Source: Stieleria bergensis (GTDB taxonomy: Bacteria > Planctomycetota > Planctomycetia > Pirellulales > Pirellulaceae). From it: a stretch of 64,000 bases of DNA. Shown in pieces: positions 34,892 through 39,545 of this stretch. The first letter of the stretch is position 1, and each line of letters starts with the position of its first letter. The stretch is taken from the NCBI GenBank assembly GCA_007745635.1, contig CP036272.1, forward strand, positions 5,788,816 through 5,852,815. Direction: 5' to 3'. Under the pieces are notes generated by a model, which saw only the letters and a program-made list of their open reading frames with translations, made no database searches and was not told the origin of the DNA. A program made the translations under genes and the position numbers.

Positions 34892-35590
34892 CTAATTGCG
34901 TTTGATCAACAGCAGACCGCTTGCAATGGCGATCACGATTGAACTGAGTTGATAGAAAGTCATTCCCCAGGCGTACACTGGCTCTTCGCGCCATGATTCA
35001 CTGATCAAACGAAACACGGCGTACGACAGCAAGTACAACAGCATCCAACGATCTTTCAGATACCCCCAGGCAATCCCCCAGGCAGCCAGTCCAGCGAACC
35101 CGGCGTGGAACACCAACTCATACAACGGTGCCGGATGACGCAGCAAAGTGGCACCGTCGGCAGGATAGGACCACACGCCCCAGTCCTGGTTGGTCGGTTG
35201 ACCATAACAGCAACCGAAGCCCAAACATCCCAACCGGCCAATGGCCACCGCCAGCGCGATCGGGACGACAAAGCTGTCTCCGGTTCGACCGCGAACATGC
35301 AGCGACCACTTGGCAACTTCTACACCCAGGTAGCCTCCAGCGAGTCCCCATAGAATCGTCTTGCCGTCGCTCAGCCATGCAGCGACCACGCCAGTATCCG
35401 GATTCGCACCCAAAATGAAAGGTAACTTCGCCGCGAAGGTAGCGCCGACCAATCCGCCGATCGCAATTCCAAACCGCTGTGTTGATTCAAGCCGTAATCC
35501 ACGCTGTCGACGTGGCAACAACAACGCGACAACAATTGAAGCCAATACCATCGACAGACTGTACGCAAGACGCCCATGGTGTTCTAACAC
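34892..35590 (-). CDS. Divergent Lgt-like (prolipoprotein diacylglyceryl transferase family) membrane protein
   Basis: The 232-residue multi-pass protein shows the Lgt family core: GRLGCLGFGCCYGQPT at 118-133, corresponding to the GRxxNFxNxE region of Lgt, then RHPAPLYE (151-158) and a C-terminal GMTFYQLSS block. It differs from E. coli-type Lgt: the Asn of GRxxN is Cys, and the FHGG histidine region reads ILWGLAGG, so residues considered essential for lipoprotein modification are absent. It therefore probably acts on another substrate or is a lipid-binding relative. GTG start overlaps the radical SAM stop by 7 bases (GTGTTAG), indicating translational coupling. Confidence 0.82.
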   Translation of the reverse strand: MLEHHGRLAYSLSMVLASIVVALLLPRRQRGLRLESTQRFGIAIGGLVGATFAAKLPFILGANPDTGVVAAWLSDGKTILWGLAGGYLGVEVAKWSLHVRGRTGDSFVVPIALAVAIGRLGCLGFGCCYGQPTNQDWGVWSYPADGATLLRHPAPLYELVFHAGFAGLAAWGIAWGYLKDRWMLLYLLSYAVFRLISESWREEPVYAWGMTFYQLSSIVIAIASGLLLIKRN

Positions 35591-37116
35591 GATGTGGAAT
35601 CCGACTTCAATTCAGGCAACTTCAAATAGCCTGGTCGATACAAGGTATTGTAGGCGCAAAACGGCACGACATGCCCGGAGGGTAACACATGATGCGTACA
35701 GCACTTCATCAATTGACGCACATCAAAATTGTAGGCATCTAGGAAGCTTGTAATCGTCACACGAAGCATGTCTTGCGCTGAAGCTTGCCCCGTTAGCACG
35801 CGGGTTAGGAAACGTTGCAGAATTGGATTGCTTGACAAGTCCGATTCAAACGAGTCCGACGAGGCAGGGGAGTTCTGCTGACTTTCCAGTCCAAGTGGAA
35901 CCACCTCGTGACAACCACAGTCACTGCCACAGTGACTACTGCGTGCCAAGAACACTTCCATCAGCAACTTGGCACGCTCCGGTGTAAAACTGATTCCGCC
36001 AGCCATCAGATCCAGGTTCTCTGCCACCGGGGCTAACTGATTCAAGGGGGCCAATTGATCGCCATCACGTGCGGCCAGCATGATTTGATGGCAGTTCGGG
36101 TGTGCACAAGGCAGCGGCGAAAAATCTTGCTCGGCGACCATGCCGCCCGATGCCTTGGCAAGCCCCTTGATGACGTCGGGAAAGGTGACTCGCGTTTCCA
36201 GATCCTCGGGAGTGTAAAAGCGACCACTATACGTTGCCGGTTGCAAACTCAAGCCGGTCACATTGGGCCTGGACAACGCCTCCTGCCACAGCGATTCGTA
36301 AAAGCCTTCAGGAAGCGGTGACGTCATCGTGGCAACCAACGTGACATTCAAATTCGCTTCCGCCAAACGATCCAGCGTTCGACGTTTGATGTCAACCAGA
36401 TCCTCGCCTCTGAGTTGCCGCACGGTCTCGCGGTCACTGCCATCCCACTGCAAATAGATTTCAACACGCTCGCGACGCTCCGCCAAGAATGCCACCATTT
36501 CAGGATCACGGGCCAAGCGAATTCCATTGGTATTGACCATCACATAATCGATCGGCCTGGCCAACGCTTCATCAACCACACGATTGAACTCAGGATGCAG
36601 CGTTGGCTCGCCGCCCGATAGCTGACAGACCTCGGCGTGCCCTTCGCATTCGATCAGTCGATCCAGGGACTTAATGATCTCTGAAAGGTCATGGTCGCGT
36701 CCCTTGGGACCACTGCCTGCGAAGCACATGGGACAAGACAGATTGCAGCGATCAGTCAGTTCAACCAAGCCAATGCAAGTGTGTTGCTCGTGCTCTTCAC
36801 ACAGACCACAGTCATGCGGGCAACCTTTGTTGCTTGCTTCCGTCGAACGCACTTGCGGCAAGACCGAGGCAGTGTGTCCTTCGCCACGATCCCACCAATC
36901 CAAATCACTACACACAAAGTCTTCGCGCACGCCGTGTTCGGGACATCGTTTGCGAAAATACACCCTCCCACGCCGAGTGATGATTTTTGCTGGAACGACT
37001 TCCATACACTGCGGGCACAGCGAATCAGTTGTGCCCAACATCACGTGATCGGCACGTCGACGCGGATCAGCCACTGCTGTAAAGGTTGGTGCAACAGGTT
37101 TTGTGGGATGATTCAT
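35584..37116 (-). CDS. Radical SAM enzyme of the Tes/MJ0619 (class D-like) type
   Basis: The 510-residue protein has an N-terminal zinc- or iron-binding-like section (C34-C37, C58), a CPHDCGLC motif (C99, C103, C106), the radical SAM CNLSCPMC (C124, C128, C131), the SAM-binding GGE (168-170), and further Cys at 337/342, 396/400/402, 472/473 and 487. The order CPxC - DCGLCxxH - TDRCNLxCPxC - MKCC - GHVVPFCAYN matches the family of archaeal tetraether synthase Tes and MJ0619 as I know it, enzymes with several iron-sulfur clusters that join or methylate unactivated carbons. Coupling to an Lgt-like lipid protein and two membrane proteins suggests a lipid substrate. The precise reaction is not shown by sequence. 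Confidence 0.85.
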   Translation of the reverse strand: MNHPTKPVAPTFTAVADPRRRADHVMLGTTDSLCPQCMEVVPAKIITRRGRVYFRKRCPEHGVREDFVCSDLDWWDRGEGHTASVLPQVRSTEASNKGCPHDCGLCEEHEQHTCIGLVELTDRCNLSCPMCFAGSGPKGRDHDLSEIIKSLDRLIECEGHAEVCQLSGGEPTLHPEFNRVVDEALARPIDYVMVNTNGIRLARDPEMVAFLAERRERVEIYLQWDGSDRETVRQLRGEDLVDIKRRTLDRLAEANLNVTLVATMTSPLPEGFYESLWQEALSRPNVTGLSLQPATYSGRFYTPEDLETRVTFPDVIKGLAKASGGMVAEQDFSPLPCAHPNCHQIMLAARDGDQLAPLNQLAPVAENLDLMAGGISFTPERAKLLMEVFLARSSHCGSDCGCHEVVPLGLESQQNSPASSDSFESDLSSNPILQRFLTRVLTGQASAQDMLRVTITSFLDAYNFDVRQLMKCCTHHVLPSGHVVPFCAYNTLYRPGYLKLPELKSDSTSC

Positions 37117-37127
37117 CGGTTCAGTTA

Positions 37128-37667
37128 CTAATGAGAGTCAGGTGGGATCGCGTCGAGCCTGGTTTGCTCGATCTGCACAAGTTTCAGTTTTCTAGTTTCT
37201 CGACCACGGACAGATTGGCGGGCGTAGACCCCCATGACCCCGAATGTAAAGGGAAAGGCCAACGGCGCGCCAATGCCGGCTGGACTCAGCACAGCTGCGG
37301 CCGCGCAAGTGGGCACAAGAATGACGGGCGAGACAACCGCCGCCATTGCCACGACCACACCAACTCGCATCCGCTCGCTAAATGTTCCCGGCAACACAGC
37401 ACCGATGATGAAGCCACACAACACATACGAGACTGCGAATCCGACCAACCAATCACCCGACGCACCCCTTCGTTCTGCCACTTCAGCGACCATGTAAAAA
37501 CAGACCGGCTGCAGGACTCCTAGACTGATCGGAAACAACAAACCCAAAGGAAAATTAACGGTGGATGGATCCAATGGCGCGGCCGCTGGTTCATCCTCGA
37601 CTGCCAAAACTTCGTAGGGATTCGGCGGCAGAAGGTTGTCTTCGGCATCGGATGTCGAACCCAGCAA
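37128..37667 (-). CDS. Multi-pass membrane protein in the radical SAM operon
   Basis: The 179-residue protein has an acidic, proline-containing N-terminus with a PNPYEVL element (15-21), and about four hydrophobic segments (about 40-62, 75-95, 103-120 and 128-147), ending in a basic tail (RGRETRKLKLVQ). No family was recognised. It ends 11 bases before the radical SAM start and starts 12 bases after the preceding gene, so it belongs to the same transcript. An NPY element near the N-terminus is shared with the neighbouring membrane protein. Confidence 0.7.
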   Translation of the reverse strand: MLGSTSDAEDNLLPPNPYEVLAVEDEPAAAPLDPSTVNFPLGLLFPISLGVLQPVCFYMVAEVAERRGASGDWLVGFAVSYVLCGFIIGAVLPGTFSERMRVGVVVAMAAVVSPVILVPTCAAAAVLSPAGIGAPLAFPFTFGVMGVYARQSVRGRETRKLKLVQIEQTRLDAIPPDSH

Positions 37668-37679
37668 CCAACCGTCCCC

Positions 37680-38246
37680 TTATTCAGAAAAGCCCGTGGG
37701 ATGCTGCGGCGTTTCTAGCACGCTGTCCAGCGCGTCGCGTCGCCGCGCTGTCCGCCGAATCACTAACGCAAAAATCGCCATCACCGCGACTGCGGCGATC
37801 ACGCTGGCAACAATCGGCCCCAGGGACTCGAGCCCTCTGCCGCCGCTCAGTACGATCGGCGTTGCAATCACCACACAGACCGGTACATACAACACCAGTG
37901 CTGGAACCGAACAACACATCATGATCACGGCATACTGCCAGCGCAGTCGGTGCGGAAGCATCAAGCCAATCAATCCAAAGCCAATCGCCCAGATGCCAGC
38001 CCCCAATACCCAACCAATCTCGTCACCGGTACTTGGATTAAACATCCCCGAAAACATTGGCAGAATGCCAATCACTCCGGTGGCCGCGGCCAAGACGCAG
38101 ACGCCAAACATTCCGCCGATGAAATTCAACTCAGACTTTGGCAAACTCTGAGCACTCACCGAATCGGTCGTCGGACTGCTATAGGGATTGATCGCTTGAT
38201 CGCTATCAAAATCAGGCGGACGATCATCCGTTGAATCATTCATCAC
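37680..38246 (-). CDS. Multi-pass membrane protein with NPYSSP N-terminal motif
   Basis: The 188-residue protein begins with a polar tail containing INPYSSPTT (about 19-27), a short motif that recurs near the N-termini of planctomycete membrane proteins, followed by four hydrophobic segments (about 43-68, 80-97, 104-128 and 143-163) and a basic C-terminus (RRTARRRDA). It is the first gene of the four-gene minus-strand operon ending with the Lgt-like gene. Function unknown; a membrane platform for the radical SAM enzyme is conceivable. Confidence 0.7.
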   Translation of the reverse strand: MMNDSTDDRPPDFDSDQAINPYSSPTTDSVSAQSLPKSELNFIGGMFGVCVLAAATGVIGILPMFSGMFNPSTGDEIGWVLGAGIWAIGFGLIGLMLPHRLRWQYAVIMMCCSVPALVLYVPVCVVIATPIVLSGGRGLESLGPIVASVIAAVAVMAIFALVIRRTARRRDALDSVLETPQHPTGFSE

Positions 38247-38418: not shown

Positions 38419-39192
38419 CTACGTGCGTTGCAAGCGTCGCTGAACAGCTTTGGCCACCGACTCGGTGGGCCCCAGATAGTCGCCGCAAATGAACCGGACC
38501 TCGGGATGTCGACTCGCTGCCTGGCTGACTTGCCCGGCAATTGCATCGTACAAGCGACCTTGAAAGAGCAAATGAGGTTGCACGATGACTGTGCTTGGCC
38601 GATCCGTTTGACTGGCCACCTGATCCAACACGGCAGGCAACTTGGGCTCGGCCATCGCGTAGAAACTGACCGCATGCTGGCCGATCGGCAAACGATTCGC
38701 CACGACCTCAGTCAATATCTTCATATCGGCCTGGGCACAGGGATCGTAACTGCCGCGTCCCACCATGACGAGCGACACCGAGTCGTCCAGCGGCCAATCG
38801 GCTCCGCTGGCTTCTTGTTCGGCTCCGCTGGCTGCCTGCTCGATCCGCTGAACCAGCAGATCAACCATCTCAGGAGCCCGAGACAAAGGGCCGCATTGCC
38901 AATGACGGATGTCTGGATTTCGGAGGGAACATTCCTGAATGATCGTCGGAATGTCCTGACGAGCGTGACCGGCGGCAAACAGCAGAAGCGGCGCGACACG
39001 AATCTCGGTCACGCCACGATCAACCAGCCGCTGCCAGCCGGACGCGATGTCTGGCTGTTGGAACTCTAGCAAGCATCCTTCGACGGGCCACTGTGGAAGA
39101 CATTGCTGCAGTTGAGCCGTTAATTCAAAGAACTGATCCGTCCCCGTGGCATCACGCGTGCCATGACCGACCAGCAAGACCCCCGAACTCAC
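38419..39192 (-). CDS. CbiX-like sirohydrochlorin chelatase family protein (two domains)
   Basis: The 257-residue protein contains two CbiX-like halves. The first opens with GVLLVGHGTRD (4-14), whose His is a metal ligand in the family, and has VAPLLLFAAGHARQDIP (66-82) with a second His. The second half opens SLVMVGRGSYDP (139-150), where the His is replaced by Arg, and has VIVQPHLLFQGRLYDAI (195-211). So each half keeps part of the site. Enzymes of this type insert cobalt, nickel or iron into sirohydrochlorin. The ATG overlaps the stop of the upstream HMA-like gene by 4 bases (ATGA). Two near-identical ASGAE/ASGAD segments (near 120-130) come from a DNA duplication. Confidence 0.85.
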   Translation of the reverse strand: MSSGVLLVGHGTRDATGTDQFFELTAQLQQCLPQWPVEGCLLEFQQPDIASGWQRLVDRGVTEIRVAPLLLFAAGHARQDIPTIIQECSLRNPDIRHWQCGPLSRAPEMVDLLVQRIEQAASGAEQEASGADWPLDDSVSLVMVGRGSYDPCAQADMKILTEVVANRLPIGQHAVSFYAMAEPKLPAVLDQVASQTDRPSTVIVQPHLLFQGRLYDAIAGQVSQAASRHPEVRFICGDYLGPTESVAKAVQRRLQRT

Positions 39193-39545
39193 TCGACCAC
39201 AGAGCTGTTTGGGAAGCCTTCTTTCTCTAGCGAAGCCACGGCATCATCGACATCGAACTCAGCGCTGTAAGTGACAATCACATTGGGAGTGTCGATTGGC
39301 CCCTCTTCCTTTTGCTTGACCAGTTCAACCGAAATCACGTCTTCACGGCTTTCCAAGTTCTCTTTGACACTCGGGAAACAAGCGTAAATGCAGTGCATTT
39401 CGGGGACATTCAACGTCAGGGACGCTGGTTCGGCTTGCACCGCGGCCGCGTTGGTCTGCGGGGGGTTGGATGGTTCTTGAAAGGCGATCAAGTAAACCAT
39501 TCCGGCAGCGACTAACACGGCGATTGCGTAAGAGATTCCACGCAT
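39189..39545 (-). CDS. Membrane-anchored HMA-like protein with CxxxC
   Basis: The 118-residue product has an N-terminal membrane anchor or signal (about 5-24) and a ferredoxin-like HMA fold from about 41 on: LTLNVPEMHCIYACFPSVKENLESREDVISVEL. In normal HMA domains the metal motif is MxCxxC; here it is M-H-C-I-Y-A-C, with three residues between the cysteines. A GAGGA element seven bases before the ATG supports this start. It is coupled by ATGA to the CbiX-like chelatase gene, so delivery of a metal to or from the chelatase is a reasonable idea. The fold call is by pattern only. Confidence 0.75.
   Translation of the reverse strand: MRGISYAIAVLVAAGMVYLIAFQEPSNPPQTNAAAVQAEPASLTLNVPEMHCIYACFPSVKENLESREDVISVELVKQKEEGPIDTPNVIVTYSAEFDVDDAVASLEKEGFPNSSVVE

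Follow-up and report, generated by a model that had tools for sequence, protein, structure and literature searches.

A radical SAM protein and an Lgt-like membrane protein as a coupled pair in Stieleria bergensis and its relatives: most likely a membrane-lipid modifying system distinct from archaeal tetraether synthase

The 64,000-nucleotide stretch of the Stieleria bergensis genome analysed here (the window; contig CP036272.1 of assembly GCA_007745635.1, positions 5,788,816 to 5,852,815, from a host genome of 7.1 Mb in one contig) contains a four-gene operon in which a radical S-adenosylmethionine (SAM) protein of the TrsS/Tes superfamily, hereafter rSAM, is encoded next to a membrane protein with the fold of Lgt. 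The two proteins are strongly coupled, occur together across several bacterial phyla and each represent a new subfamily; most likely they constitute an undescribed membrane-lipid modifying system distinct from Tes, the archaeal enzyme joining lipid tails. The operon structure proposed by the initial annotation is borne out by the list of open reading frames (ORFs), with all four ORFs at their coordinates (Table 1) and a spacing of 12 bases, 11 bases and then a 7-base overlap; relatives of all four proteins also occur elsewhere, within, beside or upstream of loci of this kind. A literature search, with subscription papers mostly outside its reach, returned no description of an Lgt-linked rSAM.

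Coupling is most evident in the 149 genomes of the window's taxonomic family, searched with thresholds of E 1e-40 for the rSAM match and E 1e-20 for the Lgt-like match. Each gene occurs in 60 genomes, with 55 having both, five only the rSAM, five only the Lgt-like gene and 84 neither (Fisher p 8e-29, uncorrected for relatedness). The rSAM-only genomes comprise three with partial rSAM matches (G016, G063, G136) and two (G067, G144) in which a divergent rSAM lies beside a gene clustering with the methyltransferase of locus L187; among those with only the Lgt-like gene (G047, G049, G052, G120, G148), the one in G148 adjoins a divergent rSAM gene scoring 361 bits. Seven genomes lacking rSAM (G001, G002, G003, G006, G011, G111, G138) gave Lgt matches of 29-51 bits only, as expected for housekeeping Lgt. 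Adjacency was counted from profile matches only; gene calls were noisy (first-start and stop-to-stop ORFs, with clustering that merged rSAM with Lgt). By this count, 40 of the 55 pairs are adjacent on the same strand, the Lgt-like gene being downstream in 39 and upstream in one, a fusion; in three the two genes share a contig at a great distance, and in 12 they are on different contigs, some at contig ends. The neighbourhood of the two genes in related genomes, which the initial annotation had named beforehand as a test of its proposal, recurs widely. Seven rSAM loci (L035, L037, L038, L044, L045, L049, L059) have no Lgt-like gene near although 7 kb or more of sequence flanks the rSAM gene on each side, and their genomes carry one elsewhere (250-333 bits). 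The pair is present in a strain of Rhodopirellula baltica and in one of Blastopirellula marina.

The natural fusion (L068 7684-9852, genome G024) is a single 722-aa ORF consisting of an Lgt-like domain and then an rSAM domain; the latter, placed after the last Lgt helix, would face the cytosol, assuming a topology as in E. coli Lgt. Long stop-to-stop ORFs in the GC-rich loci L041, L270 and L275 were discounted as further fusions, both profile matches falling in one frame only in L068. Two overlapping Lgt-like frames stand in succession before the rSAM gene in L270 (3218-4800). In L337 (6445-8439) and L340 (6579-8573), from one genus, the long gene after the unlinked Lgt-like gene appears by eye to encode an ABC transporter of lipid-flippase type.

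The rSAM protein of the window (510 aa) is recognised by the Pfam models Radical_SAM (73 bits) and Zn_ribbon_HMPTM (69 bits), and its zinc ribbon is that of the MJ0619 group. An MJ0619-like cysteine layout, claimed from the outset, is confirmed in that the motifs CPxC, CPHDCGLC, CNLSCPMC, MKCC and PFCAYN are present in the translation and the metal-ligand positions, taken from the Tes paper or inferred by alignment, are retained. They comprise a rubredoxin-like zinc-ribbon site (C34 C37 C58 H61), an N-cluster site (C99 C103 C106, probably H109), the radical SAM site (C124 C128 C131) and a putative Tes-type C-cluster site (C342 C472 C487), the last assigned from conservation, with Met439 as the C-cluster residue named in the paper. 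A triad of C114, C337 and C473 marks the family. C396, considered as a fourth invariant cysteine, was dropped, its alignment differing between two methods.

Assignment to the Tes group, as initially made, is not supported. The protein scores 261 bits against a cut-off of 450 with the NCBIfam Tes model NF045702, ten relatives tested likewise falling below, and has T456 and H476 in place of Met439 and Tyr459. These two residues are fully conserved across 1000 archaeal Tes homologues, and the M439A variant of Tes is still active (PMC9433317). Additionally, the protein lies outside the branch of MJ0619 and bacterial Tes-like sequences in the tree described below, and the inferred C-cluster cysteines are lost in 73/160 members of the Lgt-linked clades. 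The best-scoring NCBIfam model, both for the window rSAM (312 bits against a cut-off of 490) and for the Lgt-linked members tested, is TrsS (NF045646), the cut-off of which is passed in 0/294 genomes of the phylum. The TrsS family has a TrsM partner as its defining mark, and a TrsM-like methyltransferase gene is absent from the window operon. Filing the protein as Tes or as TrsS was ruled out by the NCBIfam cut-offs together with the residues; its best named matches are from Rhodopirellula and other planctomycetes.

In a tree of 209 rSAM sequences (FastTree, midpoint rooted), MJ0619 branches together with 13 sequences from bacteria (support 0.99), one haloarchaeal sequence attaching less firmly (0.13). 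The group excluding this branch (support 0.96) contains two Lgt-linked clades, namely clade A with 119 members including the window rSAM (support 0.999) and clade B with 43 members (1.0), together with a clade of 29 sequences that lack an Lgt neighbour and often lie in tandem (1.0), hereafter the tandem clade. All 41 rSAM sequences placed from the window's taxonomic family belong to clade A. Among sequences having all six positions, the C114/C337/C473 triad is complete in 103/103 of the clade A core, 14/14 other clade A members and 43/43 of clade B, in 14/29 of the tandem clade, and in 2/15 outer sequences (L187, L188), which have a methyltransferase gene beside the rSAM. C114 and C337 covary within the tandem clade (14 both, 13 neither, 2 discordant; p 3e-6, not phylogeny-corrected). 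The inferred C-cluster cysteines show a different distribution: they are complete in 73/103 of the clade A core, 14/14 other clade A, 29/29 tandem and 15/15 outer sequences, and in 0/43 of clade B, corresponding by parsimony to two events of loss. The Lgt-like gene is near the rSAM in 26/30 of the losing members of the clade A core and 30/43 of clade B. N-cluster cysteines are incomplete in 10/14 other clade A members, and methionine occupies the Met439 position in 32/43 of clade B; in the outer Tes-like group, Met439 is found in 13/17 and Tyr459 in 12/17. Certain bacterial sequences nearer to Tes (L214, L216, L217, L251-L258) keep the C-cluster cysteines and mostly Met439/Tyr459, are without the N-cluster cysteines, and by these residues would be better candidates for a bacterial tetraether synthase than the Lgt-linked rSAM.

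The pairing extends beyond the window's family. Counting in a de-duplicated set, with near defined as within 1.1 kb and misses including contig ends, the Lgt-like gene is near the rSAM in 78/104 of the clade A core, 11/15 other clade A and 30/43 of clade B, and in 0/29 of the tandem clade and 0/17 outer sequences. Gene order is fixed in the near pairs of the clade A core (Lgt-like gene downstream in 78/78) and variable elsewhere, with 6/11 downstream and 5/11 upstream in other clade A; in clade B (n=30), 21 are upstream and five downstream on the same strand, and four on the opposite strand. A window-type Lgt-like match occurs in four of 72,556 plasmid records, from Persicobacter (Bacteroidota), Nonomuraea and two Mycobacterium species (Actinomycetota), with the rSAM adjoining in all but the mycobacteria, where it is two small genes away. 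An rSAM match is present in six further plasmid records, none of which shows a window-type Lgt match; in the two of these that were read (L187, L188) a methyltransferase adjoins. Two metagenome-assembled genomes (MAGs), titled Polyangia bacterium and uncultured proteobacterium, have a window-type pair and a related upstream membrane gene, contig contamination being possible; judging from one of the titles, their phylum is probably Myxococcota. Two overlapping samples of that presumed phylum gave the rSAM match (E 1e-40) in 32/188 and 39/235 genomes, including several clade B pairs. In six loci (L209, L211, L212, L213, L281, L282), two to three rSAM genes of the Tes/TrsS superfamily lie close together without Lgt, and such tandem loci may represent a separate biosynthetic cluster.

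The Lgt-like protein (232 aa) exceeds the Pfam LGT cut-off clearly (78 bits against 24.9) and stays below the NCBIfam Lgt equivalog cut-offs (best two 54/334 and 30/118.9 bits). Its sequences form a clade separate from housekeeping Lgt, which the window genome also has, at another place. R119 and R194 correspond to Arg143 and Arg239 of the E. coli enzyme, the latter being arginine in 91/91 Lgt-like sequences; the Arg246 column holds R in 68 and K in 22 of the 91, and Arg143, Arg239, Tyr235, Glu202 and Gly154 are kept in nearly all. At the site of E. coli His103, which is essential in that H103A/N/Q/R/Y all fail to complement, the window protein has L80, and 90/91 Lgt-like sequences have V, L, M, T or I. 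Because planctomycete housekeeping Lgt has tyrosine there (13/15 housekeeping-type sequences examined), this position cannot serve as a strict test. The housekeeping Lgt of this planctomycete (L071 1189-2526) is long (445 aa), with Tyr and Cys at the E. coli His103, Asn146 and Glu151 sites. The Lgt-like family has a residue set of its own, K77, T78, E91, K94, T103 and G104, of which the last four are at the end of transmembrane helix 3 (TM3) and the start of TM4, which should be on the cytosolic side. No Lgt-like residue was found to switch with C-cluster loss at a 75%/75% criterion, and the GCCYG motif was rejected as a special mark, the housekeeping Lgt of the same genome having GRIGCLMNGCCYG.

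The two small membrane proteins of the operon, MP1 and MP2, whose hydrophobic segments were counted in a simple hydropathy scan, match no family above cut-off in Pfam/NCBIfam profile searches. They look like a tandem duplication, because both match the same Rhodopirellula baltica gene just upstream of rSAM (L074; MP1 E 2.8e-10, MP2 E 5e-8); MP1 also matches genes in L034, L035 and L075. A crude scan finds an upstream candidate with at least two hydrophobic segments in 80/119 clade A members, many with CPxC...CWLC, and the translations of MP1 and MP2 contain no CWLC segment. Other clade A loci have different small membrane proteins upstream of rSAM, and a further one of ~220 aa occurs in 18/47 loci (two of these from one genome), in L053 after the Lgt-like gene. 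Since the upstream proteins differ among loci, a small membrane gene is the usual companion of the pair without being constant in sequence.

Table 1. Genes of the four-gene operon and their positions in the window
Feature	Position	Strand	Characteristics
Small membrane protein MP1, 188 aa	37680-38246	minus	4 hydrophobic segments, NPY motif
Small membrane protein MP2, 179 aa	37128-37667	minus	3 hydrophobic segments, NPY motif
TrsS/Tes-superfamily radical SAM (rSAM) protein, 510 aa	35584-37116	minus	Radical_SAM and Zn_ribbon_HMPTM, Cys sites
Lgt-fold membrane protein, 232 aa	34892-35590	minus	LGT domain

Just upstream of the operon are a CbiX chelatase gene (38419-39192) and, overlapping it, a gene whose small product matches MerP weakly (39189-39545); the family loci searched gave no match to either protein. 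A promoter scan, which carries little weight for a planctomycete, found no sigma-70-like site.

Lipid chemistry is the likeliest reading of this evidence. Lipid modification in general is plausible, whereas the membrane-spanning lipids envisaged in the initial annotation appear unlikely as the product of the family, because the score lies below the Tes cut-off, T456 and H476 are present, the tree position is apart from Tes and the C-cluster is lost in many members. With a probability slightly above even, we favour one membrane-bound system in which rSAM and Lgt-like protein, accompanied as a rule by upstream genes for one or two small membrane proteins, share a lipid, and the radical chemistry of the rSAM has an outcome other than the tail-to-tail coupling of Tes. 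The Lgt-like protein would take a glycerophospholipid from the bilayer and either position it for the cytosolic rSAM or pass its diacylglyceryl moiety on to this enzyme, which would cleave SAM at its CX3CX2C cluster and abstract hydrogen from an unactivated carbon of the lipid or a lipid-linked partner. The ensuing chemistry may proceed at the C114/C337/C473 triad, not at the Tes C-cluster, and its outcome is expected to be unlike Tes coupling because the C-cluster appears lost in two lineages while the triad is invariant. The C-cluster of Tes is thought to be the site of carbon-sulfur intermediate formation (PMC9433317); given its loss, the family as a whole seems independent of that step.

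Several observations weigh against this interpretation. Adjacency is a sign of coupling, not of lipid chemistry. The active site of Lgt is at the periplasmic face and a radical SAM enzyme is expected to be cytosolic, so the shared substrate must reach across the membrane. The window rSAM retains all inferred C-cluster ligands, as does most of the clade A core, and Tes-like chemistry is therefore possible for this protein itself. The triad is common to Lgt-linked rSAM and the methyltransferase-linked L187 and L188. The tandem clade joins A (support 0.84), so that A and B do not form a sister pair; the Lgt link therefore either predates the tandem clade, which then lost it, or arose on two occasions. 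Around seven unlinked Lgt-like copies, neighbours read by eye included no constant third partner. Lastly, tandem-copy loci sampled through Pfam have short-chain dehydrogenase/reductase (SDR), class-III aminotransferase and nitroreductase genes in clusters, and the superfamily may therefore act on other small molecules too.

Other explanations share parts of this evidence. It is conceivable, though we hold it unlikely, that the pair embodies a third radical lipid-tail chemistry beside Tes and Mss, with a TrsS-like rSAM and a catalytically rewired Lgt acting in turn on one phospholipid to give a hitherto unseen bacterial lipid: an unactivated carbon would be functionalised by the rSAM, insertion of sulfur or cross-linking via C114/C337/C473 being examples, and the Lgt-like protein would move or join the diacylglyceryl part. 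If true, the product might be a thioether- or internally linked phospholipid of planctomycetes, some Bacteroidota, actinomycetes and probably myxobacteria. Somewhat less probable still is the maturation of a lipopeptide or lipoprotein, in which the Lgt-like protein puts diacylglyceryl on the thiol of a dedicated acceptor, perhaps the upstream membrane protein, and the rSAM modifies the acceptor or makes the thiol. The Lgt fold with Arg143 and Arg239, the frequency of upstream small membrane genes with their CPxC...CWLC segments, and the thiolated lipid intermediate observed with Tes (PMC9433317) would fit such a role; the hydrophobic residue or threonine at the His103 site, where E. coli variants fail, argues against it within the limits of that site as a test, as does the lack of a CWLC segment in MP1 and MP2.

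A bacterial tetraether or macrocycle synthase, the rSAM coupling two fatty-acyl tails as Tes does while the Lgt-like protein holds the phospholipids, would be in line with published proposals of branched glycerol dialkyl glycerol tetraether (brGDGT) synthesis by bacterial Tes homologues. We nevertheless consider it improbable, given the sub-threshold Tes score, the replacement of Met439/Tyr459, the loss of C-cluster ligands in 43/43 of clade B and 30/103 of the clade A core, mostly with the Lgt-like gene near, and the 0/17 Lgt linkage of the outer Tes-like group in which Met439 and Tyr459 are frequent. The lowest probability of all goes to the Lgt-like protein serving only to anchor or dock at the membrane an rSAM that acts on a non-lipid metabolite, as the methyltransferase-linked and tandem relatives may. 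The presumed cytosolic position of E91, K94, T103 and G104 and the aminotransferase, SDR and nitroreductase neighbours of non-Lgt relatives would suit it, but the retained lipid-site residues Arg143, Arg239, Tyr235 and Glu202 would be needless for an anchor.

Our study has importance for lipid-proxy work. Bacterial Tes homologues have been proposed as brGDGT makers by Zeng et al. (PMC8941075) and in a Black Sea study (PMC11868695), their function being stated there as untested; the latter reports homologues in 110/684 Planctomycetota MAGs and places them in some representatives of the class Phycisphaerae. The present comparison covers the window's taxonomic family, with its 41 placed sequences. 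As 41/41 fall in the Lgt-linked clade A, apart from Tes, homologue counts should not be taken as numbers of lipid-proxy producers before the Lgt-linked clades have been separated out, a step made possible by the cysteine triad and the neighbour gene. The pair of rSAM and Lgt-like protein, the latter a relative of Lgt with the lipid arginines kept and the His103 site lost, additionally offers a defined two-gene test of what such enzymes make.

Compared with known systems, the window rSAM resembles Tes/GDGT-MAS (MJ0619, PDB 7TOL/7TOM) in having the rubredoxin-like ribbon, N-cluster, radical SAM and C-terminal parts, with 29% identity over 416 aligned residues and the ligand positions present; it differs in T456 for Met439, H476 for Tyr459 and the extra invariant C114 and C337, and its Lgt-linked family differs in the loss of the inferred C-cluster cysteines in two lineages and in the tie to an Lgt-like protein. 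TrsS, listed in a table of a selenoproteome review (PMC13188914), is the closest model by score, and the triad is common to the window rSAM and two methyltransferase-linked sequences; the score nonetheless falls short of the TrsS cut-off, and the partner is Lgt-like, not a methyltransferase. With Lgt (phosphatidylglycerol:prolipoprotein diacylglyceryl transferase, PDB 5AZB), the Lgt-like protein shares the fold and Arg143, Arg239, Tyr235, Glu202 and Gly154, while it is distinguished by the absence of His or Tyr at 103, by the K77/T78/E91/K94/T103/G104 set and by its separate clade.

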